A stretch of 64,000 nt of DNA from Roseobacter sp. MED193 (GTDB lineage Bacteria > Pseudomonadota > Alphaproteobacteria > Rhodobacterales > Rhodobacteraceae): positions 98,987-162,986 of the forward strand of contig NZ_CH902583.1 in the NCBI RefSeq assembly GCF_000152965.1, in the 5' to 3' direction. Within the stretch, counting starts at the first letter, position 1; each line of letters opens with the position of its first letter. The notes below the pieces were generated by a model. The model was not told the origin of the DNA, searched no databases, and saw only the letters and a list, made by a program, of their open reading frames with translations. A program made the translations under genes and the position numbers. Of the stretch, positions 38,120-56,286 are shown in pieces.

Positions 38120-38137
38120 TAGTTTAGTGTTAAACTA
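38120..38137. promoter_or_regulatory. 7-4-7 inverted repeat upstream of pdhA (candidate operator)
   Basis: TAGTTTA-GTGT-TAAACTA, a perfect repeat 27 bases upstream of the pdhA start. A near-copy (15 of 18 bases the same when read toward the gene) stands 32 bases upstream of lpdA at 56269-56286. Both look like binding sites of the same regulator. The other parts of the 38093-38335 gap show no gene. Confidence 0.6.
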
Positions 38138-38335
38138 ATTCATAGTTGAATTTGGCGCGGCTGGCGAGACTTTTTGTGACTTCAGGTCATTTCACCGCAG
38201 ATTGGGCGCAGATCGCGGCAAAGATGCCGTGCAAGCAGGCCCGCTCGTACAGGGATTTTCTATCGTTGCATGAGGATCAAACCTGTTCAACAGCCCAGTA
38301 GATTAGCTGTGCCACAGGAGAGGTGCAAAAAGGGT

Positions 38336-38635
38336 TTATCGGATGACGATTTCGTCAGCGCGCAACAGGCCAAGAACCGAACGGGCCTGTTCATCCAGCA
38401 GATCAAGATCCAGGTAATCATCGGAGAGGCGGTGGGTGAGATTTTCGATCTCGGCGATCTCAACCTTCAAACGATCAAGATCCAGACGAAGCTCATCGGC
38501 TTCTGCCTGGATCTCAACCCGTCTGAACAACCCGAAATCACCCTGAACCGCCGCGAAGGTAAAATATGCGCCCAGCGCAAATGCGACGACGAAAAAGGTA
38601 AACGAACCTAGGGAAGGCCTGTTGCTTCGGGTCAA
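38336..38635 (-). CDS. ftsB: FtsB/DivIC-family septum formation protein
   Basis: Single-pass division protein of 99 residues that would join FtsL and FtsQ at the septum. After a short cytoplasmic part comes one membrane helix (about 11-30, FFVVAFALGAYFTFAAVQG), then a coiled coil with heptads (EIQAEADELRLDLDRLKVEI, about 41-60) and the conserved end LDLDLLDEQARSVLGLL. Related proteins begin at this place, so the TTG start at 38635 is accepted although no strong ribosome site is seen. In many bacteria ftsB lies beside glycolysis genes (eno); here pgk and pdhA are the neighbours. Confidence 0.82.
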   Translation of the reverse strand: MTRSNRPSLGSFTFFVVAFALGAYFTFAAVQGDFGLFRRVEIQAEADELRLDLDRLKVEIAEIENLTHRLSDDYLDLDLLDEQARSVLGLLRADEIVIR

Positions 38636-38764
38636 TGGAAGTGCCTGTATGTTTACTGCTCAAGTCTGCTAGCGGGCCAGTTGTTCCAGCCTCTGACCCT
38701 GTTATGGCACAAGTGATTCGCTTTGTGAATCCCCTTTTGTCTCCAAGGGGATAGAATTTTTCCT

Positions 38765-38780
38765 GTTAACACTTTGTTAG
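38765..38780 (-). promoter_or_regulatory. CtrA-like half-perfect site upstream of ftsB-like gene
   Basis: On the minus strand CTAA-N7-TTAAC: one half fits the CtrA consensus, the other has one mismatch. It stands about 130 bases upstream of the ftsB-like start. Weak evidence. Confidence 0.25.
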
Positions 38781-38822
38781 GAAATTTTCGCGCGCGAGCA
38801 GAGGGATAGCCCCAAGAAAAGA

Positions 38823-38857
38823 ACCGCCGACCAAAGAAGATCTCTGATCGGCGGCGT
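38823..38857 (-). terminator. Terminator of pgk
   Basis: CCGCCGA.C/G.TCGGCGG stem about 50 bases after the pgk stop, with T-rich sequence on both sides, so it can act in either direction. Confidence 0.7.
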
Positions 38858-38908
38858 GGTTTTTGGTCCCGTATATGTGGCAGAGGCTCAGCAACGAGCC
38901 CGGAGAAC

Positions 38909-40099
38909 TCAGCTTTCCAGCGCGGCAACACCAGGCAGAGTCTTGCCTTCCATCCATTCCAGAAAGGCACCGCCCGCTGTGGAGATATAAGTGAAGTCCC
39001 CAGCCGCACCAGAAGCATTCAGGGCAGCGACGGTATCGCCTCCTCCTGCAACAGCGATGAGCTGGCCTGCACGGGCCAGGGCGGCGGCTTTGAGAGCGGC
39101 TGCATTGGTGGCCGCATCAAAGGGCTCGAATTCAAACGCGCCAAGCGGCCCATTCCAGATCAGGGTTTTGCTCTGTTCAAAGATTTCATTGATCACTTTC
39201 ACGCTCTCCGGACCTGCGTCTAGGATCATGCTATTGTCTGGGCATTGATCTGTTGGCAGGACTTGATGCGGCGCGTGGGATTCAAATTTTTCTGTGACGA
39301 CGACGTCGCTGGGCAGTATGATCTTGCAGCCCGTGCTTTCGGCCTTGGCCATGATCTTGGCCGCAGTATCTTTCATCAGCCGTTCTGCCAGAGAGACGCC
39401 CACCGATAGGCCTTTCGCCACCAGGAAGGTATTGGCCATACCGCCGCCGATGATCAGGTAATCTACCTTCTCCACCAGATTGCCCAAGAGCTCCAGCTTG
39501 GTAGAAACCTTGGCGCCGCCGACAACGGCCGTTACGGGGCGTTTAGGGGCGCCAAGGGCGCTTTCCAAGGCCTGAAGTTCGGCCTGCATCAGGCGGCCGG
39601 CACAGGCGGGGAGCAGGCGTGCCAGGGCCTCGGTGGAGCTATGGGCGCGATGGGCCGCAGAAAAGGCGTCATTACAGTAAACGTCGCCCAGCTCAGCCAT
39701 GCCGGCGGCCAGAACCGGATCGTTCTTGGTTTCGGCCGCGTGGAAGCGGGTGTTCTCCAGCAGCAGCACTTCGCCGGGTTGCAGGGCGCTTGCGGCCTCC
39801 TTGGCGCCTTCGCCTACGCAATCGGCAGCAAAGCGCACAGGGGTTTCAAAGGCGCGCTCCAGCGTCGGGACCAACTGGTTCAGCGACAGGTTCTCGCGGC
39901 GTTCCCCGCCAGGACGGCCAAAATGCGCCAGCAGGATCGGGCGGCCTCCGGCGGCCAGGATGTCGCGTACGGTGGGGGCAATGCGACGGATCCGAGTGGA
40001 ATCGGTGACCACACCGTCGACAAGCGGTACGTTGATGTCCACACGCACCAGGACGCGTTTGCCTTTGAGATCCATGTCGTCGAGTGTTTTCCAGCCCAT
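38909..40099 (-). CDS. pgk: Phosphoglycerate kinase
   Basis: Glycolytic enzyme that moves phosphate between 1,3-bisphosphoglycerate and ADP. The 396-residue protein has the signature [15 protein letters not shown] (about 15-29), [11 protein letters not shown], the substrate basic patch ([12 protein letters not shown]), [20 protein letters not shown], and the nucleotide site [15 protein letters not shown] and [12 protein letters not shown]. Appears to be a one-gene unit upstream of the ftsB-like gene, separated by a terminator. Confidence 0.97.
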
Positions 40100-40236
40100 C
40101 AGAGGCTCCTCTGTGCAAATATCGCAGGTAATTACGCTGTTCTTTCAGCGCTTTTTAGCCATCAGTCAATGCTCCCTTGGCAATTGCGAGCGCTACCCTT
40201 AACTATCGTTGCAAATTTTGCAGACAGGAGGGCCTC

Positions 40237-40743
40237 ATGGCCGAGTACAAAGATCCAGAAAACACCGTCATCATCGAGCTGAAAGATGGCAATGTTGTCA
40301 TCGAGCTGCTGGCCGATGTGGCCCCTAAACATGCTGAGCGCATGAAAGAGCTGGCACGCGGCGGTGAATACGACAACGTCTGCTTCCACCGTGTAATCGA
40401 CGGCTTTATGGCGCAGACCGGTGATGTGGCCAATGGCGACATGGAAGACGGGTTCAACCTACGCTCAGCCGGCACCGGTGGCTCCAGCCTGCCCAACCTG
40501 CCTGCTGAATTCTCCAGCCTGCCACATGATCGCGGCACCCTGGGTGCTGCGCGCTCTGCCAACCCGGATTCGGCCAACTCGCAGTTCTTTATCAACTTCA
40601 ACGACAACCACTTCCTGAACGGTCAGTACACCGTCTATGGTCGCGTCATTGAAGGCATGGAGCACGTCGACGCAATCACCCGTGGCGAGCCCCCTGCGAG
40701 CCCCGACCGCATGATCAGCGTCAAGGTGGCCGCAGATGTTTAA
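40237..40743 (+). CDS. ppiB: Cytoplasmic peptidyl-prolyl cis-trans isomerase, cyclophilin type
   Basis: Cyclophilin that speeds proline isomerisation in folding proteins. At 168 residues without a signal it is the cytoplasmic form. Motifs include APKHAERMKELARGGEYD, the active-site FHRVIDGFMAQTGD (Arg near 48) and ANPDSANSQFFINFNDN. ATG at 40237 has CAGGAGG upstream; a longer frame from 40177 would pass through that site. It overlaps the next cyclophilin gene by 8 bases. Confidence 0.94.
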   Translation: MAEYKDPENTVIIELKDGNVVIELLADVAPKHAERMKELARGGEYDNVCFHRVIDGFMAQTGDVANGDMEDGFNLRSAGTGGSSLPNLPAEFSSLPHDRGTLGAARSANPDSANSQFFINFNDNHFLNGQYTVYGRVIEGMEHVDAITRGEPPASPDRMISVKVAADV

Positions 40744-41281
40744 GCTCGCAGCCGCATTTTCCCTGCTGGCCAGCTCTACGCTGGCTGCGGGTCTGGAAAT
40801 TCAGATCGAAGGCGAGGCCAATGGCACCGTCAAAATCGATCTGTTTGAGGATCTGGCACCTAAACACGTGGAACAGATCACGGCCTTGGCGGCAGAAGGC
40901 AAATATGACGGGGTGGTTTTCCACCGCGTGATCGAAGACTTCATGGCGCAGACTGGCGATGTTCAGTATGGGCTGATGGGCGGCGACATGAGCCGTGCCG
41001 GCATGGGCGGATCTGAGCTTTCCGACCTGCCTGCCGAATTCTCTGAGCACCCCTTTGATCGTGGTGTCGTTGGCATGGCGCGCTCATCCAATCCGAATAG
41101 CGCCAATTCCCAGTTCTTCATCATGTTCAAGCCAGGGCATTTCCTCAACGGGCAATACACTGTTGTGGGTGAGGTCACCGAAGGCATGGATGTTGTTGAC
41201 GCGATCAAGTTGGGCACTGGCGGTAATGGCTCTGTAGTGGGCAAGCCCGACATGATGAGCAAAGTCACCGTTACTGACTAA
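40736..41281 (+). CDS. Periplasmic cyclophilin-type peptidyl-prolyl isomerase
   Basis: Second cyclophilin, 181 residues, with a Sec signal (MFKLAAAFSLLASSTLAAG, cleavage about 18) and the same core as the gene before it: APKHVEQITALAAEGKYDGV, VFHRVIEDFMAQTGD, NPNSANSQFFIMFKPGHFLN. It would act in the periplasm on outer-membrane or secreted proteins. The 8-base overlap with ppiB shows a two-gene operon born from duplication, with the products sent to different compartments. Confidence 0.93.
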   Translation: MFKLAAAFSLLASSTLAAGLEIQIEGEANGTVKIDLFEDLAPKHVEQITALAAEGKYDGVVFHRVIEDFMAQTGDVQYGLMGGDMSRAGMGGSELSDLPAEFSEHPFDRGVVGMARSSNPNSANSQFFIMFKPGHFLNGQYTVVGEVTEGMDVVDAIKLGTGGNGSVVGKPDMMSKVTVTD

Positions 41282-41288
41282 ACTCAGA

Positions 41289-41315
41289 TTTCCCCAGCGG
41301 TTTTTGCTGGGGAGA
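41289..41315. terminator. Stem-loop between convergent cyclophilin and TerB-like genes
   Basis: TCCCCAGC, loop GGTTTTT, GCTGGGGA. The stem is strong but the following T-run is poor. It could serve either gene. Confidence 0.5.
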
Positions 41316-41324
41316 TTTGACATA

Positions 41325-41855
41325 TCAGCGAATTTTCAAACCGTGCTGGACATCCTCCAGCGCGGTTTTTTGCGACTGACTGAGCGTGCCATTTCCGTAT
41401 TTGACGATGGATTGGATAAGACTGACCAGCGTATTGAAATGGGTTTGTTCGCTTAGTTTGTAGAGACGTCTGCTCAAACGCGATATGGCCTGCTGTGCCC
41501 CACCGCATTCCCCCATGATCCAACGTCCCAGCAAGACCAGCTCTTCGGCTTCTTCGTGGGGAATTTTCAGCTCTTCGCGCAGGCCCCGTATCAGGGCTTC
41601 TTTTTGTTCGGCGGTTGGAAAGTCGTCGAGTTCCAGGAAGCTGGCACCCAGCGCCGCGAGTGCGATTTTTGGGTCGTCAATGGTTTCCGCTGGGTGCAGG
41701 TTGTTTCGGCGGCGAAACCCGAACCTCCGGGCGGCGAGGCGGATATCATTTGCGACATCAAGCAGTTCGTGCCCCATCTCCGCTGCGTTTCGTGCCCGCT
41801 GGATCCAAAAATATGCGGCAGCGATGACCGCGACGGCGCCAAGAATAAATGGCAT
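41325..41855 (-). CDS. Membrane-anchored protein with TerB-like helical domain
   Basis: A 176-residue protein with one N-terminal membrane helix (about 2-19, PFILGAVAVIAAAYFWIQ) and a helical cytoplasmic part. The segment from about 62 (DPKIALAALGASFLELDD, then EEAEELVLLGRWIMGECG and LIQSIVKYGNGTLSQ) has the look of a TerB/DUF-type all-helical domain, but no metal-binding acid pairs are certain. ATG at 41855 starts at the helix; an in-frame start at 41915 is not supported. Function unknown. Confidence 0.6.
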   Translation of the reverse strand: MPFILGAVAVIAAAYFWIQRARNAAEMGHELLDVANDIRLAARRFGFRRRNNLHPAETIDDPKIALAALGASFLELDDFPTAEQKEALIRGLREELKIPHEEAEELVLLGRWIMGECGGAQQAISRLSRRLYKLSEQTHFNTLVSLIQSIVKYGNGTLSQSQKTALEDVQHGLKIR

Positions 41856-41932
41856 GTAGTGCTCCAAATTGATTCTATCAATAGGTGAATATTGTACACC
41901 TTTGAGCCGTGTCATGGATAGGCTGTGAAGGT

Positions 41933-41964
41933 AAAAAGCCGCACCAAGCAGGCTTGGCGCGGCT
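41933..41964 (-). terminator. Terminator of the RTX protein gene
   Basis: On the minus strand a near-perfect AGCCGC-CCAAGC/GCTTGG-GCGGCT hairpin followed by five T, about 60 bases after the stop at 42022. Confidence 0.8.
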
Positions 41965-42021
41965 GAAGCATGATCTAGCCCAAAACGCAGCTGTCAGGAC
42001 CGCGACCTGGGTCGAAACGAC

Positions 42022-43257
42022 CTAGAACAGGAAGTTATCCGCGTCTTGAATCTCTGCCAGTGTCACGTTTTCGACCAGGATCGTCACATCGGAGAAGGAC
42101 ACCAATACGTCATCGCCCTGCTGCGCAAAATCCAGCTGGCCAAACCAAGAGGCCCCGCGACCGATGACGATTTTGTCCTGGCCGATTGCAAAGTCCAGAA
42201 TTGTGTCATCCCCATGCCCCCGGTGGAACACAAAGCGATCTGCACCCGCACCACCGTGCAAAATATCGTTGCCGACCTGTCCATTCAGGGTGTCGTGGCC
42301 CTTGCCGCCATAGAGCTGATCCCAGCCGTGGCCACCGATAAGCTCATCGCTGCCACTGCGTCCGAACAAACGATCCGCGCCCAGATCGCCAAACATTGTG
42401 TCCCTGCCAACACCGCCAAGCAAACGGTCATTGCCATTGCCGCCCTTCATCAGATCATCGCCGAGGTCACCGACCAAGAGGTCGCGCCCTGTGCCGCCGA
42501 GCAGGCTGTCATTGCCATCCCCACCAAACAGTTTATCGCTGCCGTGGTTGCCTTGGATGGTGTCATTGCCGCTTTGGCCCCAGAGGGTGTCATTGCCTGA
42601 CATCCCGGCAACCGCATCGTTGCCGCTCCCGGCAAAGATGAAGTCATCTATGACGCCCGATCTAACATTGCCGGTTAAGATGTTTGTACCAGAAGATCCG
42701 CTTTGCACGGAGATGGTTTTATCCTGAAATTCAATAAGTTCAACCGACAGGAGCCGGTCAATGCCATCCGCAGAGTCTACTTGGAGAAAGGATCCCAACA
42801 TAGAAATTTCAGCATCAGCGAATTGATCATCAATAATGACCTTATCAACACCGGTTCCACCGTTAATGGTGTCATTGCCGCTGCCAACGTTGATGGTGTC
42901 ATTCCCGCCATAGGTGAAGTATGTACTGCCGGCCAACATGTTTGAAATAATGCTGTCGTCTCCGGTGAACATTGCACTGGACCCAAGTTTGGAATCCAGT
43001 TCCCAGTACCGCAAGCTGAAATCAGAAATAGTGTATTTTGCAACACCATATTCACTGACGGAAATCGAGTTAACTGTCCAGATTTGATAGTAGCTGGAAG
43101 TAAAGTTCCCTGTCAGCGTCATGGCTGCGCCATTGCTACCAGAGATGACTAAGGTGGTTGCAGACCGATACGTCAGAGTAGGGGAGGCAAAATCTGAGCT
43201 GTTGACAAAGTTAGATGTCCAGTAACCGCTGGGATCATTGATGACAATGTTGGTCAT
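42022..43257 (-). CDS. RTX calcium-binding repeat protein (type I secreted)
   Basis: A 411-residue secreted protein. The N-terminal 95 residues are rich in Ser/Thr/Tyr and of no known family; then come GGNDTINVGSGNDTINGG (about 107-124), an intervening segment, and a long run of GGxGxDxLxG nonapeptides at about 215-345 (for example GGDGNDSLLGGTGRDLLVG), which form calcium-binding beta rolls. The C-terminal end ADNFLF after FSDVTILVENV is typical of type I secretion signals. No ABC/MFP secretion genes are in the window, so it would use a system encoded elsewhere. ATG at 43257 preferred to a TTG at 43284. Confidence 0.88.
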   Translation of the reverse strand: MTNIVINDPSGYWTSNFVNSSDFASPTLTYRSATTLVISGSNGAAMTLTGNFTSSYYQIWTVNSISVSEYGVAKYTISDFSLRYWELDSKLGSSAMFTGDDSIISNMLAGSTYFTYGGNDTINVGSGNDTINGGTGVDKVIIDDQFADAEISMLGSFLQVDSADGIDRLLSVELIEFQDKTISVQSGSSGTNILTGNVRSGVIDDFIFAGSGNDAVAGMSGNDTLWGQSGNDTIQGNHGSDKLFGGDGNDSLLGGTGRDLLVGDLGDDLMKGGNGNDRLLGGVGRDTMFGDLGADRLFGRSGSDELIGGHGWDQLYGGKGHDTLNGQVGNDILHGGAGADRFVFHRGHGDDTILDFAIGQDKIVIGRGASWFGQLDFAQQGDDVLVSFSDVTILVENVTLAEIQDADNFLF

Positions 43258-43375
43258 TTTGAAAATTCCAAAAGTTTGTGTCAAAACGTTAACGTATCAA
43301 TATCATCTTCACCGATGGTGTAAAGGTATGGAAACCCTTCTGGGTTGTTCTCCCCTGGGCGAGAATGGAAGCCAC

Positions 43376-43410
43376 AAAAAAAGGCACCGAAACAGGTTTC
43401 GATGCCTTTT
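43376..43410 (-). terminator. Terminator of the M23-bactofilin operon
   Basis: Minus-strand stem AAAAGGCA-CGAAAC/GTTTCG-TGCCTTTT followed by seven T, 45 bases after the bactofilin stop. Confidence 0.85.
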
Positions 43411-43452
43411 CAAAATTTGACTGTCAATTGGCATGGCCAATCGATCGTTGGC

Positions 43453-44001
43453 TTAGCCTTCGGCCTTTGCAGCGGCTGTGGCGGCTTTCACGGCAGCGGA
43501 GGGCGCGGCAGCGGCGGCTGGCGCTGCGGCAGGCATGGCTTTTTTGCCGCCTGGGGTCAGCGGGTCATCCTGACGCTGGACCGAGCCCTCAAAATGGGCG
43601 CCGCTCTCAATTGCGATGGTCTTGTGGATGATGTCGCCTTCCACACGGGCGGTGGCGGTCAGACGTACCTTCAGGCCACGAACCCGGCCAACAACCCGGC
43701 CATTGACCACAACGTCATCAGCGATCACTTCGCCTTTGATGGTTGCGGTTTCGCCAACTGTCAGAAGATGAGCGCGGATATCGCCTTCAACGGTGCCTTC
43801 GACCTGGATATCGCCTGAGGTTTTCAGATTGCCGGTAATGTGCAGATCTGAGCTGAGCAGCGATGCGGGTGGTTTTGCCTTTGGAGCAGAGGGCTTGTAG
43901 TCGCTGGCAGGGGCAGCAGGCGTCGAGGAAGCCGCCGGGGCCGCTGTTGGTGTTGCCTCGGCTTTAGGTCCGGGCTCATTGATTTTGCTCTTAGAAAACA
44001 T
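43453..44001 (-). CDS. Bactofilin (polymer-forming cytoskeletal protein)
   Basis: Bactofilin of 182 residues that would polymerise without nucleotide and place wall-shaping enzymes. The beta-helix core is at about 50-145 (SLLSSDLHITGNLKTSGDIQ, EGDIRAHLLTVGETATIKGE, VVNGRVVGRVRGLKVRLTA) flanked by Ala/Pro-rich unstructured ends, the usual plan. It overlaps the upstream M23 peptidase gene by 11 bases. Linked bactofilin and M23 genes are a known pairing in shape control (for example in Helicobacter and Caulobacter). Confidence 0.93.
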   Translation of the reverse strand: MFSKSKINEPGPKAEATPTAAPAASSTPAAPASDYKPSAPKAKPPASLLSSDLHITGNLKTSGDIQVEGTVEGDIRAHLLTVGETATIKGEVIADDVVVNGRVVGRVRGLKVRLTATARVEGDIIHKTIAIESGAHFEGSVQRQDDPLTPGGKKAMPAAAPAAAAAPSAAVKAATAAAKAEG

Positions 44002-45322
44002 TTCTTGCAGCCTTGATATAGATCATCGGGTTTACGGGTTTGCCATTGACCCTTACCTCATAGTGGAGGTGGGTGCCGGTGGACCGTCCGGTGGTACCCA
44101 TATCAGCAATGTGATCGCCGCGCGAGACCCTTTGGCCAACCTTAACGCGCAGATTTGAGTTATGAGCGTATTTCGTCTCAATCCCAAAGGCATGCTGAAT
44201 GGTAACAAGTTTGCCATACCCGGATTGCCAGCCGGCATGGGTGACGATGCCATCGGCGGTGGCAAAGATATCGGTGCCGGTACGGCCAGCAAAATCGGAG
44301 CCCTTATGCAGGCGACGGCCACCTGTTTTGGGATCGCGCCGGTAGCCATATCCTGATGACTGGCGCACATGATTGAGATTAACTGGGCTGGCAAAAGGCG
44401 CCTGCTGCGCTGCCATCCGATAGAGGTTCAACTGGTTCAACTGATTGAGAATCTGGTTGGCACGCAGCTCATCCGCGGAGGGTTCTTCACCGCGGGTGGA
44501 CAGGGCTAAAGGGGTGAGCGGCCCGCCCTGACCGCTATAGCCGCGTCGCACCTGCTCCAGAATACGGTCTGGCGGCATGCCAGCATTTTTGAACATCTTG
44601 TCCAGCGGCGCTACCGAAACGGCGACGGCCTCTTCAAGCTGGCGGAAGATCTGGTCGTTGCGCTCGTTCAGCAACTCCAGTTCCAGCTCCATTTCGGCGC
44701 GCTGTTGCAGGGCATCTTGTGCGTCTGCTTCTATCTGGTCGCGCTCGGTCGCGGTTTCAGACAGAACCGTAGAGAGGAAATCCATCTGCAGGGGTGCGGC
44801 GGCCGCTGCCAGCGGCGTAGACCATTCTTCTTTGGTGCTTTCTCGGAGCTCTTCTAGTTCCGCCCGGGTGCCGTCCCGCTGGGTCATGGTCTGGCGCAGG
44901 GTGGCCTGGATCACTTCAATACCCGTTTCCAGCTCTTGGCGCCGGGTCTCAGAGGTGAGCAGTTCTGATTGCATCATCGAGATCTGCGCGAGAGCAGCAT
45001 TAAACCGCTGCTGAGCTGCAAGAGCTTCCTCGGCGCGCGAGTCGCGTTCATTGGAAATCTCATTCAAACGGGCGCGATAGGTCATTTGGTCCCGTTTGGC
45101 CTGTTCACGGAAATTGCCCGCGCCAATGCTGTCCATCAAAACAATAGCAGTGGCAACGATGGCCCAGGCCACAAACAGGACCACACCACCAATGGCCACC
45201 AACTGTGTTCCGGGTCTCAACCGCACAAAGCGGGTATCAGTATCAGATTTCAAAAAGACCCGACGTTCCGGAAAGCGTCTCTCCAGAAACGCATGTATCT
45301 TAATAGCCAGACGTGTCCGCAC
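43991..45322 (-). CDS. M23 metallopeptidase (murein hydrolase) with coiled coil
   Basis: Envelope-attached endopeptidase of 443 residues for peptidoglycan crosslinks. A membrane helix (about 38-63, LVAIGGVVLFVAWAIVATAI) is followed by long coiled coils (about 72-235) and the M23 domain: RLHKGSDFAGRTGTDIFATA with the zinc His/Asp, and GTHLHYEVRVNG. I start at GTG 45322 because AAGGA lies 7 bases upstream and relatives begin there (RTRLAIKIHAFLERRFPER); the frame is open to 45412. It overlaps the bactofilin gene by 11 bases, implying a two-gene operon. Confidence 0.92.
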   Translation of the reverse strand: MRTRLAIKIHAFLERRFPERRVFLKSDTDTRFVRLRPGTQLVAIGGVVLFVAWAIVATAIVLMDSIGAGNFREQAKRDQMTYRARLNEISNERDSRAEEALAAQQRFNAALAQISMMQSELLTSETRRQELETGIEVIQATLRQTMTQRDGTRAELEELRESTKEEWSTPLAAAAAPLQMDFLSTVLSETATERDQIEADAQDALQQRAEMELELELLNERNDQIFRQLEEAVAVSVAPLDKMFKNAGMPPDRILEQVRRGYSGQGGPLTPLALSTRGEEPSADELRANQILNQLNQLNLYRMAAQQAPFASPVNLNHVRQSSGYGYRRDPKTGGRRLHKGSDFAGRTGTDIFATADGIVTHAGWQSGYGKLVTIQHAFGIETKYAHNSNLRVKVGQRVSRGDHIADMGTTGRSTGTHLHYEVRVNGKPVNPMIYIKAARNVF

Positions 45323-45831
45323 GTTCTGATCCTTGTCCCATCCCCATCGCAGAGCCGCCGCCATCCCCAGCCGCTGAACTCTGCGCAAAATCTTTAGCCA
45401 TGCAGCCCGCACCGGGCAAGTGGGAAGGCGATTTTTGGTCGTTGTTCCATCCGTTTGCCTGGGTCAACGAACATTTTGAGCGAAATACCGCCAATAATCG
45501 CGACCTGGCCCATTCGGGAAACCTCCGCAACTTTTCCCTCTCCACCGGGCGCTTTGCAGTAGGTGCAACAAAGGGTCTTTCCAAATCGTGCTGCTGAGCC
45601 CGGCCTCAGCTCGACGGTCCAATCCTCAACGAATAGGGCCAAGTCAACAGTTCAAGGGGGGAATACGCCCTAACAGCGAATGAAAAATGCGAAAGTTTCG
45701 CCGCCACTTTCGCCGCAACCCGCTCCGACAGCTCACATCCGGGCCAAGATTCCATTTCGAAAGACCTTGATGCCCAGGCCCGAAAGTGTAGCACTGTGGC
45801 TCAAGTTTTACTTGAACCGAGGGTCTTTCGA
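45323..45831. other. Gene-poor stretch with nested inverted repeats
   Basis: About 500 bases with no convincing gene on either strand. Near its right end an imperfect inverted repeat (45752-45766 with 45822-45835, core TCGAAAGACC/GGTCTTTCGA) encloses a perfect TCAAGT-TTT-ACTTGA repeat at 45801-45815. The right arm runs into the start of the damaged dehydrogenase gene. Confidence 0.5.
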
Positions 45832-47988: not shown

Positions 47989-48102
47989 GGAGGATCCTCA
48001 TCCTAGCAGGAAAAAGTTGACACAGAAGGCGGGCGGGGCGGCTCTGCGCCCAAAAACGCAGAGCTCAGTGCGCCCCGTGCCCCGGCTTCTCTTTCACTTT
48101 TC

Positions 48103-48136
48103 CAAAAATATTCCGGAGTGTGAGGCAGAGCCTCAC
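48103..48136 (-). terminator. Terminator of bcp
   Basis: Perfect GTGAGGC-AGA-GCCTCAC repeat at 48120-48136 with ATATTTTT further on, on the minus strand about 40 bases after the bcp stop. Confidence 0.6.
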
Positions 48137-48176
48137 TGATGTCCGTGCAGTCTCAGAAAAACAAAACGGGGTGATC

Positions 48177-48650
48177 TTACCCCTTGGCCGCCAGGGTTTG
48201 GGCCGCCTCCAGGACCTCTTCCACATGACCGGGCACCTTAACCTTACGCCAGAGGCGCGCAATGTGCCCTTCGGCGTCAATCAAAAAGGTCGAGCGCTCA
48301 ATACCCCAGTGTTTCTTGCCATACATGTTTTTCTCTTTCCAAACCCCATAATCCTCGCAGGTGCTGCCCTCTGCATCAGACAACAGCGGCACGGTTAGGT
48401 CGTGCTTTGCGATGAATTTATCGTGCTTTGACATCGGGTCTTTTGAAATACCAAACACAGAAGTCCCGGCATCGGCAAAGGCTTGCAGATGGGCGGAAAA
48501 CCCGATGGATTCTTTGGTGCATCCCGGGGTATCATCGCGGGGGTAGAAAAACAAAACAACGGCTTGGCCTTTCAGCTCTGCAAGAGAGATTTCACCGCCG
48601 CCATCCCGGGGCAGGCAAAACAGAGGGGCCTGATCAGTTGCATCGAGCAT
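48177..48650 (-). CDS. bcp: Thioredoxin-dependent peroxiredoxin, Bcp/PrxQ type
   Basis: Thiol peroxidase of 157 residues that reduces hydrogen peroxide and organic peroxides. The peroxidatic Cys is Cys44 in YPRDDTPGCTKES. The usual resolving Cys five residues later (TPGCTxEAC) is replaced here by isoleucine (TPGCTKESI); another Cys at 98 (GSTCEDYG) might take that part, as in PrxQ forms that resolve from helix 3, or the enzyme may be of 1-Cys type. Rest of the fold: VFGISKDPMSKHDKFI, ERSTFLIDAEGHI. Confidence 0.93.
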   Translation of the reverse strand: MLDATDQAPLFCLPRDGGGEISLAELKGQAVVLFFYPRDDTPGCTKESIGFSAHLQAFADAGTSVFGISKDPMSKHDKFIAKHDLTVPLLSDAEGSTCEDYGVWKEKNMYGKKHWGIERSTFLIDAEGHIARLWRKVKVPGHVEEVLEAAQTLAAKG

Positions 48651-48823
48651 TTATGTGGTCTCCTGAAAGGTTTAGTCCCAAACGGCTGGCGCTCAGAGCA
48701 TTGAACACGAACTGTTTGGCAAGGGCTATCTGATATTGTTATGCCATCGTGGCCAAAGGATAAACACTGATCGAACCGGTTAGGGAAAATGAGGACCTCG
48801 TCGCGCACCAGGTCGATGAGCTG

Positions 48824-51800
48824 GTGGGCAAGCCTACGCCACGGCGCGGGCGCAGGTCTTTGCGTGCGTTACGGTGGTCCATCCGTTTGCTGGCAGTCCT
48901 CTGTTTCCTTGGCGCGGGGGGGATCTATTTTGGCATTGGCACAAGGATGGATGCACCACAGTGGCTGCGCCAGCGTCTGGAGGCCCGGATCGAGCAGGAG
49001 CTTAAGGGGCTGCAGCTTGAATTTGGTGAAATCAATTTTGTGGTAAATCGGGGCTGGCGTCCCCGCATCGGGATGCGTGACGTCACATTGCTTGCGGCAG
49101 ATGGGTCGCCAATCGTGCAGCTGGCAGATGCGGAAATCTCTATGGCCATGAGGCCTCTTTTGCAGGGCAAGATACAGCCCAAACGCATTTCGTTGAGCGG
49201 GTTATACGCCAATTTGCGCCGCGAATCTGATGGGATTGCCCTCAGCCTCTCTGAGGGTGGATCGCCATTGCGCCAGGCGGCCAACCTGCCGCAGTTGATT
49301 GAGCAATGGGATCGTCAGTTTGAATTGCCGGTGCTCTCCTCGCTGACCGAAGTGGCCACCGATGGGGTCACACTGCGCTACGAGGATGTACGCATCGGGC
49401 GGGTATGGACCCTGGATGGGGGGCATGTGCGCTTCACGCGTGAGGCCCAGTCTTTGACGATTTCCTCTGGGTTCTCGGTGCTGAGCGGTCGCCAGGACGT
49501 TGGCGCTGTTGAGGCCAACTACAAATCGGATATTGGTGATGCCGCTGCTGAGTTTGGGGTTCTCATCAGTGATATTGCCAGTGAGGATATCGCCTTACAG
49601 ACCCCGGCTTTGGGGTGGCTGCAGGTCCTGCGGACCTCGATCTCAGGGTCCCTGCGCGGCGGCATCAACAGTGATGGCGGCCTTTTGCCGCTTTCGGCGA
49701 GCCTCCAGATCGGCAAAGGGGTTATTCAGCCTGCGCCCGAAGCCTTGCCAATTCCGATCCACAGCGCCCACAGCTACTTTACATTTTTTCCGCTTGAGCA
49801 GCGCCTTCAGTTTGACGAGCTGAAGATCAGCAGCGGCTGGGGTTCGGGCACGATGGAGGGCAATGCGGAGCTTGCAGGAATACGCGACGGCCGTCTGACA
49901 GATCTGGTGGGACAGTTGCGGTTCACCGACCTCACTCTCAACCCCCGCGGGCTGTATGCAGAGCCCCAGATTTTCCAAGGTGTTACGGTGGACTTCCGAC
50001 TGCAGCCGGACCCCTTCCGCTTTCAGCTTGGGGAAATGCTGGTCGAGCACGAGGGACGGCAGATTCGTTTGGATGGTAAGCTTGAAATTGGTCCAGAGGG
50101 CTGGGAATACGGGCTGGATGCGCGTTCTGACCGCCTGGATCTGGCGCAAGTGAAATCTCTATGGCCTGCTGGTGCGGCCGAAAAACCCCGCCAATGGGTG
50201 CTGGATAATGTTTTTGAAGCTCAGGCCCAGGACGTGAATTTCGCCCTGCGGGGTAAGGGGCGCGCCAAGCCGTTCTATGCACTGGATGCAAATTTCACTG
50301 GGGCAGAGGTCAAATTCCAAAAGCATATGCCGCGCGTGCGGGGCGGGGCCGGTCATTTCAGCCTTTATAATACGCGGATGGTCGTTGTGGCTTCTGAGGG
50401 CGTGGTCACGGCAGATGACGGTGGTTCCGTGCAGGTGGCGGGGACGTCCTTTATCATTCCAGATACTTCGGTGCGCGATGGCACTCCGGGAATCGCGCGC
50501 GTGGTGGCTCAGGGCTCTGTCACGGCGGGGTTGTCTTTGCTCAATCGTCCACCGCTGTCGATAATGGACAAGGCGCAGCTGCCGGTTGATTTGGCTGCTG
50601 GACAGGTGCGCGTTGTAGGAACTCTTGCATTGCCATTGAAACCAAAGGTCGCGCCAGAGGAAATCTTGTACCACTATCAAGGCACAGTCACTGCGGTGGA
50701 GAGCGCGACCCTGGTCCCCGGACATGAGGTGGCGGCCCAGTCTCTGGCGCTAAGCGGTGATCAGGGGCAGGTGAGACTCTCTGGGGCAGGCAGTCTGTCC
50801 GGTATTCCGGTCAGTGCCACATGGAGCCAGAACGTGGGGCCAAAGGCGAGCCCGGCAAGTTCGGTGACGGGTGAGATCGAAATCAACCAACAGGCCTTGG
50901 ATACCTTTCAGATTGGTCTGCCCCGCGGCACTCTTTCAGGTCAGGGGTTAGGCCGTTACCAGCTTGATCTTGTCCCAGAGAAGCCGCCTCAGTTGCGGTT
51001 CTCCTCTGATTTGGTGGGCACTGATTTGCGCATTCCACAGATTAGTTGGCGCAAACCTCCGCAAACTGCGGGGCGTTTGGACATGGATGTGACTCTGTCC
51101 ACCCCGGTTAAGATCGATCGGCTGGCCCTTGAGGCGCCGGGCCTGCAGGCCCGGGGCTGGGTGAGCACCAAGGAAAACGGCGGGCTTGGTCAGGCCAACC
51201 TGAGCACAGTTACTGTTGGCAACTGGATGCGAGGAGCTGTCAGCTTTATTGGCCTGAACAACGGTTTGGCCGAAACGCGCATCACTGGCGGAACCCTTGA
51301 TCTGCAAAGGGCACCGTTTTCCGGGGAAAGCGGCAGCAGTTCAGGCGACAGCTCGCAGACTGGTCCCATCACCATGCGGCTCGACCGCTTGCAGGTTACC
51401 GAAAGCATTGCCCTGACCAGCTTTCAGGGGAAGTTCTCAACACGCGGCGGGCTGAATGGGCAGTTTACCGGCAATCTCAATGGGGCCACAGCGGTTTCTG
51501 GTGTTGTGGTTCCAAAGCCAGGCGGGATTGCCACCCGGATCCGTTCGGATGATGCCGGCGGAGTCTTTCAGGCCGCAGGCATCCTGCGCCATGGCCGCGG
51601 CGGGAGCTTTGACATGACTTTGCTGCCGTCGAAACAGCCCGGAGAATATGACGGCGAGATCAAAATCAAGAACACCCGGATCAAGAATGCCCCCTCCATG
51701 GCGGCCCTGTTGAATGCGATCAGTGTTATTGGTCTGCTGGATGAGCTGTCTGGCGGAGGCATTTTGTTCACTGGGATGGAGGCAAAGTTCCGGCTCGGCT

Positions 51801-52162
51801 CGACGCATTTGGTGCTCCATGAGAGCAGCGCAGTTGGCCCATCTATGGGGCTGTCGATGGACGGGATTTATGATTTGAAAACCGGCGCGCTAAATATGCG
51901 TGGTGTGATCTCGCCCATCTACATCATCAATGCGATTGGTCGGGTCGTTGCTCGGAAGGGGGAGGGGCTGTTTGGCTTTGCCTTCAAGCTAAGGGGCACC
52001 TCGGATGAACCGAAGGTCAGTGTTAACCCCCTATCGGCCCTCGCCCCCGGAATGTTCCGGGAGATTTTCCGCGGCAAGGCGCCCACCGTTCCAGGTGCGC
52101 CACAGGAAGAAACACAATCCCAGCCAGTTTCGCCGCCCAGCTCCAGAGGCGGGGATCGGTGA
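48824..52162 (+). CDS. Large AsmA/YhdP-like (DUF3971) envelope protein
   Basis: A 1112-residue protein with one N-terminal membrane helix (about 18-37, LLAVLCFLGAGGIYFGIGT), then long repeating beta strands across the periplasm and an AsmA-like C-terminal part (about 900-1080, with IKNAPSMAALLNAISVIGLL and GAKFRLG-type strands). Proteins of this shape (YhdP, TamB, AsmA) form grooves that carry phospholipids between inner and outer membrane. The C-terminus is a polar tail with GAPQEETQSQPVSPP. Start uncertain: GTG at 48824 lacks a ribosome site, while a CTG at 48767 has AAAGGA just upstream and would add 19 residues. Confidence 0.85.
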   Translation: MGKPTPRRGRRSLRALRWSIRLLAVLCFLGAGGIYFGIGTRMDAPQWLRQRLEARIEQELKGLQLEFGEINFVVNRGWRPRIGMRDVTLLAADGSPIVQLADAEISMAMRPLLQGKIQPKRISLSGLYANLRRESDGIALSLSEGGSPLRQAANLPQLIEQWDRQFELPVLSSLTEVATDGVTLRYEDVRIGRVWTLDGGHVRFTREAQSLTISSGFSVLSGRQDVGAVEANYKSDIGDAAAEFGVLISDIASEDIALQTPALGWLQVLRTSISGSLRGGINSDGGLLPLSASLQIGKGVIQPAPEALPIPIHSAHSYFTFFPLEQRLQFDELKISSGWGSGTMEGNAELAGIRDGRLTDLVGQLRFTDLTLNPRGLYAEPQIFQGVTVDFRLQPDPFRFQLGEMLVEHEGRQIRLDGKLEIGPEGWEYGLDARSDRLDLAQVKSLWPAGAAEKPRQWVLDNVFEAQAQDVNFALRGKGRAKPFYALDANFTGAEVKFQKHMPRVRGGAGHFSLYNTRMVVVASEGVVTADDGGSVQVAGTSFIIPDTSVRDGTPGIARVVAQGSVTAGLSLLNRPPLSIMDKAQLPVDLAAGQVRVVGTLALPLKPKVAPEEILYHYQGTVTAVESATLVPGHEVAAQSLALSGDQGQVRLSGAGSLSGIPVSATWSQNVGPKASPASSVTGEIEINQQALDTFQIGLPRGTLSGQGLGRYQLDLVPEKPPQLRFSSDLVGTDLRIPQISWRKPPQTAGRLDMDVTLSTPVKIDRLALEAPGLQARGWVSTKENGGLGQANLSTVTVGNWMRGAVSFIGLNNGLAETRITGGTLDLQRAPFSGESGSSSGDSSQTGPITMRLDRLQVTESIALTSFQGKFSTRGGLNGQFTGNLNGATAVSGVVVPKPGGIATRIRSDDAGGVFQAAGILRHGRGGSFDMTLLPSKQPGEYDGEIKIKNTRIKNAPSMAALLNAISVIGLLDELSGGGILFTGMEAKFRLGSTHLVLHESSAVGPSMGLSMDGIYDLKTGALNMRGVISPIYIINAIGRVVARKGEGLFGFAFKLRGTSDEPKVSVNPLSALAPGMFREIFRGKAPTVPGAPQEETQSQPVSPPSSRGGDR

Positions 52163-52239
52163 AGCCGCTGAGCGCCTTGTTGTGTCTGTCGGACCCGACA
52201 GCCATGGCCAAGCCGGAACAAAGGCCTTAAAGGGGCGCC

Positions 52240-53310
52240 ATGAAACTGAGTGATTTTGATTTCGACCTCCCCGACGCGTTGATCGCCACCCGCCCGGCGA
52301 CACCGCGGAGCTCTGCTCGCCTGCTTGTGGCGACGCCTGACCAGATGACGGATGGGCATATTGGGGATCTTGTTGACCTGTTGCAACCAGGAGACCGACT
52401 GGTTCTGAACGACACGAAGGTCATTCCTGCGCGGCTGTCAGGTCTGCGCCATCGCGATACCGCACAGGGGCGGATGGCTGCCAAGATCGAGGTGACCCTG
52501 CTGGATCCCAAGGCGGATGGCAGCTGGTCGGCCTTGTTGAAGCCTTTGAAGAAGGTCAAAATCGGTGAAACAGTTGCGTTTTCTGACGCTCTGACAGCCG
52601 AATTGGTTGGCGTTACCGAAGGGCAGGGTCTGTTGCGTTTTAACCTTGTAGGGGATGATTTTGATGCGGCGCTCAACGCTGCAGGCGCTATGCCGCTTCC
52701 GCCCTATATTGCGGCCAAACGCGCCGCTGATGATCAGGATAAGGAAGATTACCAAACCGTCTGGGCGCGCCACTCTGGTGCGGTCGCCGCGCCGACGGCC
52801 TCACTGCATTTCGATCAGGACCTGCTGGCGGTGCTGAAGGCAAAGGGCGTGCAGTTCACCTATGTGACCTTGCATGTGGGGGCGGGCACCTTCCTGCCGG
52901 TGAAGGTCGAAGATGTCACCAGCCATAAGATGCATGCGGAATGGGGCCGGGTCAGCGCTGAGGCTGCCGCCGAGATCGCCGCGACCAAAGCCGCCGGAGG
53001 GCGTGTTATCCCTGTCGGCACCACCGCCCTGCGGCTGATTGAAAGTGCGGCGCGTGGCGGCACCGTTCAGCCCTGGGAGGGCGAGACGGATATCTTTATC
53101 TATCCGGGGTTTGTCTTTCACGCGGCAGATGCCCTGATGACCAATTTTCACCTGCCCAAATCCACCCTTTTGATGTTGATCTCGGCATTGATGGGGCAGG
53201 ATCGTGTGCGCGAGATCTACGAGCACGCGGTAAATAGTCGGTATCGTTTCTTTTCTTATGGCGATGGGTCGCTTTTATTGCCCCAAGAGACGAATACGCC
53301 GCAGAAGTGA
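52240..53310 (+). CDS. queA: S-adenosylmethionine:tRNA ribosyltransferase-isomerase
   Basis: Enzyme of queuosine synthesis, moving the ribosyl part of SAM onto preQ1 in tRNA to give epoxyqueuosine. The 356-residue protein begins [20 protein letters not shown] and shows [36 protein letters not shown], the signature [13 protein letters not shown] and [21 protein letters not shown]-like segment, and [16 protein letters not shown]. Lies 77 bases behind the AsmA-like gene. Confidence 0.96.
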
Positions 53311-53345
53311 CGCGAATGAAGGTAGACAAGCAAGGATACGATCCG

Positions 53346-53359
53346 CTCTGATCAGAGCA
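53346..53359. repeat. Perfect 14-bp palindrome between queA and an MFS gene
   Basis: GCTCTGATCAGAGC, 36 bases after queA and about 150 before the MFS start. It may be an operator or part of a terminator; no T-run follows. Confidence 0.4.
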
Positions 53360-53507
53360 GGATACCGTGCTTTGTTCGTATCTCACATCAACCGACACTT
53401 GCCTCTGAAATCCGGGGCACCCCCGTCACTAACACCAGACGGGCCAATGCTGCTGCTGTAACATCTGTTTCGCCAGCCCCGTGCCCGACCACAAAGGAGA
53501 GACCGCA

Positions 53508-54782
53508 ATGCTCCAGGTTTTGTCGAGCGCTTGGGCGCTGCTTTTGGGCATGGGCATGCTGATGATCGGCAATGGCATGCAGGGCACCATTCTAGGTGTG
53601 CGGGGCGCGTTAGAGGGGTTTTCAACCCTTGAGATGTCTTTTGTGATGTCGGCCTATTTTATCGGCTTTCTCGGAGGCTCGCGGCTCGCGCCTGAAATGA
53701 TCCGCCGAGTTGGTCATGTGCGGGTCTTTGCGGCGCTGGCTTCGCTGATCTCTGCCGTCATGATCCTGTACCCGGCCGTGGCCAACCCGATCGCCTGGAT
53801 GCTAGGGCGTGCCCTGATCGGTTTTTGCTTCTCCGGGGTGTATGTGACAGCTGAAAGCTGGCTCAATAACGCTTCGGACAATGCCAACCGCGGCAAGGCG
53901 CTGTCTCTTTATATGATCGTGCAGACGATGGGCATCGTAACGGCCCAGGCTCTGATGCTTGTCGGCGATCCGGCAGGCTATGAGACCTTTGTCATCGCGT
54001 CTGTGGTCATTTCGGTTTCTTTCGCGCCGATCCTGCTGTCGATCTCACCGACCCCGGCCTTTGAAACCACGAAACCGATGTCCCTGCGCGAACTGATGAA
54101 TGTCTCTCCACTTGGTTGTGTCGGTATGTTCCTGTTGGGGGGGATCTTTTCCGCCCAATTTGGGATGAGTGCTGTTTATGCGGCTGAGGCAGGGTTGAGC
54201 CTGTCGCAGATCTCTATCTTCATTGCGACGTTTTATGTCGGGGCACTTATCTTGCAGTATCCGCTGGGCTGGATGTCGGACTGGATGGATCGTCGCGTTT
54301 TGGTCCTTGCAGTCTCTGCTCTGGGTTGTGGTGCCGCGATCCTGGCAATGATTATGGGAGGCAATTACAGCTTTTTGCTGTTGGGGGCCTTCTTGATCGG
54401 TGGCATGTCCAACCCGCTCTATTCTCTCCTGATTGCCCATACAAACGACTATCTGGACCATGATGACATGGCGGCGGCCTCTGGCGGGCTGGTCTTTATC
54501 AACGGGCTGGGCGCCATTGCTGGTCCGGTCATCACGGGTTGGATCATGAGCGATGCCATCTTTGGCCCTTCGGGGTATTTCCTGTTTATGGCTGTGCTGC
54601 TGGGGGCTTTGGCCGTCTATGCACTTTACCGGACTACACAGCGGGCGGCGATTCCCTCCGATGAGACCGGTATTATGTCGCCGATGACCCCCACTGGCTC
54701 ACCTGTGGTGGTCGAGTTTGCCCAGGAATATGCCATTGAAACGGAGATCGAGGAGCAAGAAGCCGCCAATGAGGCCGGTTGA
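53508..54782 (+). CDS. MFS transporter
   Basis: Inner-membrane transporter of 424 residues with 12 predicted helices. The loop 2-3 region reads FIGFLGGSRLAPEMIRRVGH and the start of the second half LGWMSDWMDRRVLVL gives the MFS D-R/K motif. The family resembles the YcaD/YfkF group of small-solute permeases. The ATG at 53508 is preceded by AAAGGAGAG; a GTG at 53481 would include this ribosome site. C-terminal cytoplasmic tail is acidic (EIEEQEAANEAG). Substrate unknown. Confidence 0.85.
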   Translation: MLQVLSSAWALLLGMGMLMIGNGMQGTILGVRGALEGFSTLEMSFVMSAYFIGFLGGSRLAPEMIRRVGHVRVFAALASLISAVMILYPAVANPIAWMLGRALIGFCFSGVYVTAESWLNNASDNANRGKALSLYMIVQTMGIVTAQALMLVGDPAGYETFVIASVVISVSFAPILLSISPTPAFETTKPMSLRELMNVSPLGCVGMFLLGGIFSAQFGMSAVYAAEAGLSLSQISIFIATFYVGALILQYPLGWMSDWMDRRVLVLAVSALGCGAAILAMIMGGNYSFLLLGAFLIGGMSNPLYSLLIAHTNDYLDHDDMAAASGGLVFINGLGAIAGPVITGWIMSDAIFGPSGYFLFMAVLLGALAVYALYRTTQRAAIPSDETGIMSPMTPTGSPVVVEFAQEYAIETEIEEQEAANEAG

Positions 54783-54920
54783 TTGCGCTAACCCTATGGG
54801 GCTGTGAGGAATATTTCAGCAAACTGACCGAAATGTTGCAAATAGTGACCCTGCGTCACTTGAAAAGAACGGGCGAATGGGGCTGAACTCAACCTCAGTA
54901 TAAATACGTGGAGATGGACC

Positions 54921-55499
54921 ATGCAGGGCCCCGAAGATATCCTCAAGTTTTGGCTGGATGAGGTAGGCGAAAAAGGTTGGTATCTCGCCGACGATGCGCT
55001 GGATGAGACAATTGTTACCCGGTTTAAGGAGACCTGGGACGCGGCCTGTGAGGGAAAATTTTCCCTATGGCTGACCTATCCGTCGGGAACACTGGCCTAT
55101 ATCATCCTGATGGACCAGTTCCCACGCAATATGTTCCGTGGAACCGGAGAGGCCTTTTTCTCGGACCGGATGGCGCTGAGCGCGGCTAAGAATGCGATCC
55201 AGAAAAAGTGGGACTTGAAGATCGACGAACCTGCGCGACAGTTCTTCTATCTGCCTTTGATGCATTCCGAAAACCTATGCGACCAGGAGCGCTGTGTTCG
55301 GTTGATGAAAGAACGCATGCCCAAGAGTGGCGCCTCCAATATGTTGCATGCGCGGGCCCACCGGGAGGTGATCCGCCTGTTTGGCCGCTTCCCCTATCGC
55401 AACGAGGTTTTGCTGCGCAACAGCACGGCTCCGGAGAAAGACTATGTCACCGCTGGCGGCTATGGCACCACAGTGCGCAACCTGCAGGCCGCAGGCTAA
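54921..55499 (+). CDS. DUF924-family protein
   Basis: A 192-residue soluble helical protein of the DUF924 family (TPR-like fold). Typical points: ILKFWLDEVGEKGWY at the front, LAYIILMDQFPRNMFRGT, RQFFYLPLMHSENLCDQE, and HREVIRLFGRFPYRNEVLLR. GGAG stands before the ATG. It stands alone after the MFS gene, with a terminator of its own. The molecular function is not known. Confidence 0.92.
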   Translation: MQGPEDILKFWLDEVGEKGWYLADDALDETIVTRFKETWDAACEGKFSLWLTYPSGTLAYIILMDQFPRNMFRGTGEAFFSDRMALSAAKNAIQKKWDLKIDEPARQFFYLPLMHSENLCDQERCVRLMKERMPKSGASNMLHARAHREVIRLFGRFPYRNEVLLRNSTAPEKDYVTAGGYGTTVRNLQAAG

Positions 55500-55513
55500 G
55501 GGCTAACAGATAG

Positions 55514-55542
55514 CAGGGAGCCAGTAGCAGGCTCCCTGTTTT
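55514..55542 (+). terminator. Terminator of the DUF924 gene
   Basis: CAGGGAGCC/GGCTCCCTG stem followed by TTTT, 15 bases after the stop codon. Confidence 0.8.
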
Positions 55543-55631
55543 GGGTCTTATGTTTTGCCCAGGGTGCTGATCCGTTTGGCAGTGATGGCCTCTCTTGGGT
55601 TTGTACTCCCCAAGGGGGCCAAAATTTCGCG

Positions 55632-56063
55632 CTAGTTCAACAGTGTCGCCGCCTTTGTCGTGCAGTTTTGCAGGCGTGGCAGGCGCGTGGACATCTCGGC
55701 CGTTATACTCTGCACGGCAGCCTCCACTGCGGTCGTGACCACTTGGGCTGGCAATGCGCTCATTCTATCGGTCTCTTCATTGATCCTCGATAGCTGCTCC
55801 TCCAATCGCGCAAGCCTGAACCGCATCTCGGCACTGTCCGGGGAGTCATATTCGGTTAGGCTGCGGTTCAAATCTGCGACTTCCGCATTGATCGTTTGCA
55901 GTTGGTCATGGATCGGTGTGAAGCGCGCGCTGATTTTTCCCAGGTCCTCACTTACCCCGCGTGCAGAGGCAAAGAGCTGCCAGCCTAAAAAAAGGCAGAG
56001 CGCCAGTAACAACAATGTTGCGTTAAGCAGGGCTTTGAGGAGGTTCCAAATTGTCTTTGTCAT
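55632..56063 (-). CDS. Small membrane-anchored coiled-coil protein
   Basis: A 143-residue protein with one N-terminal membrane helix (about 12-32, ALLNATLLLLALCLFLGWQL) and a long coiled coil across the rest (LQTINAEVADLNRSL, MRFRLARLEEQLSRINEE). No known family. The ATG at 56063 begins shortly before the helix; the frame is open to 56153 but the added residues do not look native. Divergent from lpdA, with 255 bases between. Confidence 0.6.
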   Translation of the reverse strand: MTKTIWNLLKALLNATLLLLALCLFLGWQLFASARGVSEDLGKISARFTPIHDQLQTINAEVADLNRSLTEYDSPDSAEMRFRLARLEEQLSRINEETDRMSALPAQVVTTAVEAAVQSITAEMSTRLPRLQNCTTKAATLLN

Positions 56064-56268
56064 CCAGGGAGATCTCTTTACGATTCTGGCGGAAATTCTG
56101 GCTAGTATAGGCGAAACTGCAGGGCTATGTTTCCCTAAAGACAAAAAGAGCACCGCCAGGTCTGCTGAGCCTCACGCTGTTTTAGTCCGGCGGGTTAACA
56201 GGAGAAACGCGCAGAGTCGGAGGCGATTTTCATCCAATTTGACTGAGTGTTTGCAGTTTGTCAGAAAG

Positions 56269-56286
56269 TAGTTTAACGGTGAACTA
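56269..56286. promoter_or_regulatory. 7-4-7 inverted repeat upstream of lpdA (candidate operator)
   Basis: TAGTTTA-ACGG-TGAACTA, one mismatch between arms, ending 32 bases upstream of the lpdA ATG. It matches the repeat at 38120-38137 upstream of pdhA at 15 of 18 positions. Confidence 0.6.

Follow-up and report, generated by a model that had tools for sequence, protein, structure and literature searches.

The 64-kb stretch of Roseobacter sp. MED193 DNA analyzed here (the window) contains two loci for the pyruvate dehydrogenase (PDH) complex, pdhABC and lpdA, which lie 18 kb apart and each carry upstream the same 18-bp inverted repeat, TAGTTTA-N4-TAAACTA or a close variant of it. The two repeats are beyond chance and, together with a copy in front of the malic enzyme gene maeB elsewhere in the genome, make up a three-site regulon. 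From sequence comparisons, we hold it very probable that the repeats are the operators of one MarR-family repressor of the pyruvate-to-acetyl-CoA node, encoded elsewhere on the chromosome.

When each repeat is read toward its own gene, the pdhA and lpdA copies are identical at 15 of 18 bases, with 27 bases between operator and ATG for pdhA (ATG at 38092, minus strand) and 32 for lpdA (ATG at 56319, plus strand); the positions, identity and distances given in an earlier note on this DNA were all correct when the sequence was re-read. A scan of the window at up to three arm mismatches returned these two repeats only, for 0.12 matches expected, and none of 100 shuffled sequences reached two. This result and the conserved position of near-exact sites in other genomes bear out the view of the earlier note that chance is unlikely. 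Domain searches placed E1-alpha, E1-beta and E2 at one locus and E3 at the other, so that the two loci do supply all three PDH enzymes, as that note had proposed. The third near-exact site, TGGTTTAACGTTAAACTA, was found by a scan of the whole genome 21 bp upstream of maeB. Pfam places malic enzyme domains in the maeB product, together with the beginning of a phosphotransacetylase domain.

The same arrangement recurs in related genomes. Within the genus, all 12 genomes searched contain at least one site at three mismatches (ten have three, G003 two and G004 one), and the 16 newly fetched loci all have the site upstream of pdhA, lpdA or maeB. Across the Rhodobacteraceae, whose members are common marine bacteria, 114 of 295 genomes contain a site at one mismatch or fewer, versus none of the 295 for the reversed control motif. 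The surroundings of 97 such sites were fetched, namely 64 among the matches listed in the family search and 33 from 11 genomes with at least three sites: 91 lie at the start of pdhA, lpdA or maeB (28/30, 16/18 and 47/49 in three batches), two of them (L041 and L042) overlapping the aligned pdhA start. Near-exact sites are thus not spread at random, which the earlier note had named as a refuting outcome. A class-wide search for the exact motif with one free base matched 2 of the 380 out-of-family genomes and one of the five from the family.

The link to a regulator came from these out-of-family relatives. Autoregulation failed as a route to it and gave no direct link within the family, because none of the 31 family marR loci contains the motif. 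In both out-of-family genomes with the exact motif, two tandem copies precede an operon encoding an Acg-type flavin mononucleotide (FMN) oxidoreductase and a MarR protein; NF047509 scored over its cut-off for the one Acg-type gene tested, and the gene of the other discovery locus is its homologue. The MED193 genome contains one clear homologue of this Acg-linked MarR (49% identical, E 3e-30, the next-best MarR being at 3e-7). The candidate gene is directly downstream of a carbon-nitrogen hydrolase gene, present at 30 of the 31 family loci examined. Among the best 80 of 560 MarR relatives, the closest are those of an uncultured Roseobacter sp. (98%), Phaeobacter sp. 11ANDIMAR09 (97%) and Pseudophaeobacter leonis (94%), and the genera Phaeobacter, Pseudophaeobacter, Leisingera, Roseovarius and Shimia as well as Ruegeria pomeroyi are represented. 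The candidate scores over cut-off for PF12802 (43.5 bits, cut-off 27) and PF01047 (30.5 bits, cut-off 24.6); the models that it matches are MarR_2, MarR and HTH_34, with no GntR model among them, and no NCBIfam model comes near its cut-off (28.6 of 230 bits at best). The monomer is predicted to adopt a canonical MarR fold (predicted local distance difference test score, 94.3) with residues 65–77 as the recognition helix. The named families among the top PDB matches of this model are MarR-type (TM-score up to 0.85), and its structural neighbors include MftR–, MarR– and HpaR–DNA complexes. At the start of another MarR gene in the MED193 genome stands a palindrome, TAGTTCGTATATGAACTA (L005 1501–1518), probably the operator of that gene; as this loose palindrome fits the consensus poorly, that MarR was set aside. 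The CtrA and LacI-type readings of the palindrome, considered on the strength of known motifs only, were dropped once the MarR link emerged.

The location of the sites bears on how the candidate might act. Base counts over 163 distinct contexts (L041 having entered the profiles as a wrong, weaker segment) gave TAGTTTA-N4-TAAACTA, with GTT and AAC near-invariant, and 159 of the 163 sites are 15–50 bp from the aligned start codon. In the pdhA contexts (n = 43), (i) a T and an A occupy positions −7 and −6 from the operator in 35 and 33 cases, respectively, and (ii) CTCGC occupies −31 to −27, each base being present in 26–33 of the 43, which suggests that the start point of the putative promoter falls inside the operator. 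In the lpdA contexts (n = 30), TTG at −18 to −16 (27–29 of 30) would place the −10 element inside the operator; the maeB contexts (n = 13, with eight from a single genus) can be read in the same way. Since the operators overlap or abut the putative −10 element and cover the putative +1, their positions fit repression by occlusion, in which a MarR dimer would bind the palindrome. A common repressor, which the earlier note expected, is supported as the best reading, with promoter geometry pointing to repression. It is unlikely, though the best placed of the alternatives, that MarR binds the site as an activator or a dual regulator: some MarR proteins activate, and other proteins are known to activate this node, as PhaR does with pdh in Sinorhizobium meliloti (PMC12542648), but 159 of the 163 sites are within 15–50 bp of the start codon, at the probable −10/+1 region, where activators rarely work.

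The assignment to MarR is strengthened by the way in which protein and site vary. Let operator A be TAGTTTA-N4-TAAACTA and operator B TNGTNCGATATCGNACNA. Of 80 out-of-family genomes, counting the two discovery ones, 14 encode a homologue of the Acg-linked MarR. Eight of the 14 loci carry operator A (no more than 3 of 14 arm mismatches). Within each of these it is confined to a position immediately ahead of the Acg-type gene, and in six of the eight it forms a tandem pair with the copies 21–24 bp apart; the recognition helix reads T[KR]GA[MI]TN in all eight Acg-linked loci that carry it. The independent support is smaller than eight because two are discovery loci and three come from their families. 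Locus L155, with helix AKGAITN, has a weaker operator A (four mismatches), and L150, L158, L159 and L160, with other helices, have no operator-A motif. Nineteen family genomes are listed with a second MarR, about 40% identical, and its surroundings were fetched in 15: all 15 paralogues are Acg-linked, none has operator A and all have operator B at 3 of 14 mismatches or fewer, the helix being K-T-[ST]-M-[TS]-H in 14 (mostly PKT[ST]M[TS]H) and KNSLTH in one. In loci L161–L175, this second operator family stands before the Acg-type oxidoreductase–marR operons, often apparently in tandem. L149, L150 and L155 also reach the operator B consensus, at three, two and three mismatches, respectively. The association of helix class with the better-fitting operator has a p value of 2e-6, which is generous because the operator B consensus was derived from the same sequences. 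The MarRs linked to PDH have the helix [VL]TRGA[MI]TN in all 31 cases examined, and these 31 proteins form one clade (100/100) among the Acg-linked MarRs in a tree whose rooting and nearest sister are weak. Among the Acg-linked relatives, recognition helix and operator change together.

The presence of the regulator also follows that of the sites. Among 80 family genomes tested (40 of the 48 available with at least two sites and 40 of the 181 with none at one mismatch), MarR is encoded in 40 of 40 with sites versus 32 of 40 without (Fisher p 0.0027; this p value and those below are uncorrected for relatedness). Seven of the eight genomes counted as MarR-less have no match at 1e-12, and the eighth, G094, has a weak match (E 3.6e-15). 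Thirty of the 40 site-less genomes (the eight without MarR and 22 of the 32 with it) were then followed up by scanning 200 bp upstream at up to 4 of 14 arm mismatches. The pdhA site is present in 22 of 22 genomes with MarR versus none of the three that have pdhA and no MarR (p 0.0004); two of the 22 sites are at four mismatches, one of these being 107 bp from the aligned start. Upstream of pdhA orthologues in genomes with the regulator, the motif is thus not absent, absence being the other refuting outcome named in the earlier note. Corresponding figures are 15/22 versus 0/3 for lpdA (p 0.052) and 15/22 versus 0/7 for maeB (p 0.0022), and all three genes carry the site in 12 of the 22 genomes. 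All five genomes with neither MarR nor a close pdhA at E 1e-120 (G058, G065, G077, G082 and G105) encode an AceE-type PDH (PF17831, E below 1e-99), as do four of the 22 that have MarR and pdhA; weaker PF17831 matches over the cut-off (E 1e-7 to 1e-12), in 11 further MarR genomes and in G094, were taken as other enzymes.

These data bear on a second alternative, namely that the palindrome is used by another DNA-binding protein, of the TetR, XRE or LacI type, with shared ancestry behind the correlation with MarR. Palindromes of this size suit several protein families, the marR gene of the family lacks an operator (31 loci) and MarR binding is a prediction; but both out-of-family exact matches precede marR operons, helix and operator co-vary across 23 Acg-linked loci, and MarR co-occurs with the sites in 40 of 40 genomes and with the pdhA site in 22 of 22 versus 0 of 3. 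We therefore regard the involvement of another protein as improbable. Far less probable still is that the repeat works at the RNA level, by forming a hairpin close to the ribosome binding site. The palindrome is a short distance from the start codon and probably within the leader, but changes across the 163 sites mostly affect one arm and often break pairing (pair 2–17: 42 one-sided changes, 31 non-pairing, six compensatory; pair 7–12: 19 one-sided changes, all 19 non-pairing), and neither the tandem copies before Acg operons nor the co-variation with a protein helix fits an RNA element; the hairpin was rejected on the pairing-breaking changes. Finally, chance similarity of two AT-rich repeats, for which speaks the excess of control over motif matches in the MED193 genome at a loose cut-off, is negligible given that 91 of the 97 fetched family sites are at the same three genes and that the control has no match in 295 genomes at one mismatch.

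Several observations weigh against a MarR repressor of this regulon. The genome-wide motif search proposed in the earlier note, which added the maeB site, showed no excess over the control at a loose cut-off (eight forward matches at two mismatches or fewer versus 19 for the reversed motif). A scan of this one genome would consequently not prove a regulon, and significance rests on near-exact sites and conserved position. In the genus, too, the reversed control matches at three mismatches (14 matches versus 33 for the motif), and therefore position matters. At marR itself, the motif is absent from all 31 family loci. MarR is kept in 32 of the 40 tested genomes without a near-exact site; the lpdA site and the maeB site are each missing in seven of the 22 genomes with MarR; and the co-occurrence hangs on eight MarR-less genomes, including G094 with its weak match, with kinship uncorrected and a p value of 0.052 for lpdA. 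Outside the family, six of the 14 MarR homologue loci have no motif at three mismatches, and L157 has the matching helix T[KR]GA[MI]TN with neither an Acg-type neighbor nor a site. Scans for consensus sigma-70 promoters found none for pdhA or lpdA, the proposed promoter elements being weak. Lastly, the support is computational: sites, conservation, regulon and the co-occurrence and co-variation with MarR were obtained by computation, and from them we infer binding, repression and the ligand.

In the mechanism that we favor, a MarR dimer would block RNA polymerase at the core promoters of pdhABC, lpdA and maeB by binding the 18-bp palindrome TAGTTTAACGTTAAACTA, so that the three PDH enzymes and malic enzyme, a source of pyruvate from malate, would be co-ordinated by one repressor. 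A small metabolite of the pyruvate/acetyl-CoA node, and not thiol oxidation, would trigger release; 30 of 31 orthologues of the candidate have no cysteine, which makes thiol sensing unlikely. As for its origin, we give about an even chance, taken as a whole, to a scenario in which the MarR gene of an Acg operon was duplicated in the ancestor of the Rhodobacteraceae. One copy would have kept the old operator, lost its neighbor and its autoregulation and become a dedicated pyruvate-to-acetyl-CoA switch, with pyruvate, acetyl-CoA or lipoate, as a metabolite of the node, for its effector; the other would have stayed with the Acg gene, its recognition helix and operator changing together and thereby removing cross-talk. 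The switch would have been lost together with the E1-alpha/beta PDH in lineages relying on an AceE-type PDH. Such paralogues, with matched changes in helix and operator, are a natural experiment in the acquisition of a new DNA specificity without cross-talk.

The regulon is new and its regulator newly assigned, but both are of a kind already known. PdhR of Escherichia coli, a GntR-family protein with operator ATTGGTnnnACCAAT, represses the genes of the PDH complex. The logic is the same, a repressor of the PDH complex, but the candidate belongs to a different protein family, the base counts of the 163 sites are not of the ATTGGTnnnACCAAT type, and its targets are three, with pdhABC, lpdA and maeB each at its own genomic location; the remark in the earlier note that the site is unlike that of PdhR agrees with a regulator of another family. 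The candidate resembles the ligand-responsive MarR, HpaR and MftR repressors in its predicted winged-helix fold, its Pfam MarR_2 and MarR scores over cut-off and a predicted palindromic operator at the putative promoter. It differs from them in that its targets are distant genes of central metabolism and not a neighboring operon, its own gene has no site (31 family loci) and no NCBIfam model is near its cut-off. The Acg-linked MarRs of other Alphaproteobacteria are closest in sequence, and those with helix T[KR]GA[MI]TN and an Acg neighbor use the same operator (8/8), but their genes share an operon with that of an Acg-type FMN oxidoreductase, and it is this operon of their own that they probably regulate; we found no name for these regulators in the literature. 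A search of the open-access literature, most subscription journals being outside its scope, yielded, among the entries listed, no report of the motif or of a MarR regulator for these genes.

Two other systems act on the same node. According to PMC12542648, PhaR/AniA of S. meliloti, likewise an alphaproteobacterial regulator of the pyruvate/acetyl-CoA node, binds polyhydroxybutyrate (PHB), has a motif of the YGCR type and acts positively on pdh, and pdh proteins, an LpdA and the NADP malic enzyme (tme) respond to it; its operator, as given there, is unrelated to ours, the base counts of the 163 sites containing no YGCR-containing palindrome. In Rhodobacter capsulatus, the redox regulators FnrL and RedB, the latter of the CRP/FNR family, which sets it apart from the candidate, affect pdhA, pdhB, lpdA1 and maeB2, and PMC9603517 reports these effects as indirect. 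A place for a direct regulator thus remains; a repressor acting directly on PDH, E3 and malic enzyme, if confirmed, would fill it. The conversion of pyruvate to acetyl-CoA is a central step of carbon metabolism, the control of which is now directly testable.

Six of the 97 fetched sites are away from pdhA, lpdA and maeB. One (L297 299–316, G150) precedes lipA by 14 bp in a single family genome; lipA encodes lipoyl synthase (TIGR00510 over cut-off), which makes the PDH cofactor, so the regulon may include lipoate synthesis, with lipA as a possible occasional fourth target. Another (L310 1528–1545, G137) is between genes that look thiolase-like and phaB-like by eye, Pfam showing a short-chain dehydrogenase, a possible link to PHB synthesis. 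The site at L040 is about 120 bp before a gene for a pyridoxal phosphate enzyme (PF00291), and those at L051, L289 and L314 are apparently at gene ends.

Table 1. Operators, putative promoter elements and genes of the proposed regulon and its candidate regulator. Positions are those of the window, except for marR.
Feature	Position	Strand	Basis or remark
pdhA operator	38120..38137	-	TAGTTTAGTGTTAAACTA on the forward strand; TAGTTTAACACTAAACTA read toward pdhA
Putative -10-like hexamer of pdhA, TATGAA	38139..38144	-	Abuts the pdhA operator; aligned contexts
Putative -35-like hexamer of pdhA, CTCGCC	38163..38168	-	Aligned contexts
lpdA operator	56269..56286	+	TAGTTTAACGGTGAACTA, read toward lpdA; putative -10 hexamer (56274–56279) inside
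Putative -35-like hexamer of lpdA, TTGCAG	56251..56256	+	Aligned contexts
pdhA, pyruvate dehydrogenase E1 alpha	37103..38092	-	PF00676; TIGR03182 over cut-off
pdhB, E1 beta with lipoyl domain	35719..37086	-	Pfam search
pdhC, E2 acetyltransferase	33959..35263	-	Pfam search
lpdA, dihydrolipoyl dehydrogenase (E3)	56319..57713	+	PF07992/PF02852; TIGR01350 over cut-off
Candidate marR, 146 aa	L061 1498–1935 (about C1:2335509–2335949)		Homology to Acg-linked MarR

Three further features of the window were recorded. Between pdhC and pdhB, a 144-codon open reading frame (35281–35715) has no Pfam or NCBIfam match at E 0.001. A phage capsid gene (22061–23242, PF05065) may, we presume from the family, belong to a gene transfer agent cluster. 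Finally, an MmyB-like helix-turn-helix regulator (PF17765 over cut-off) is encoded at 62927–63688.

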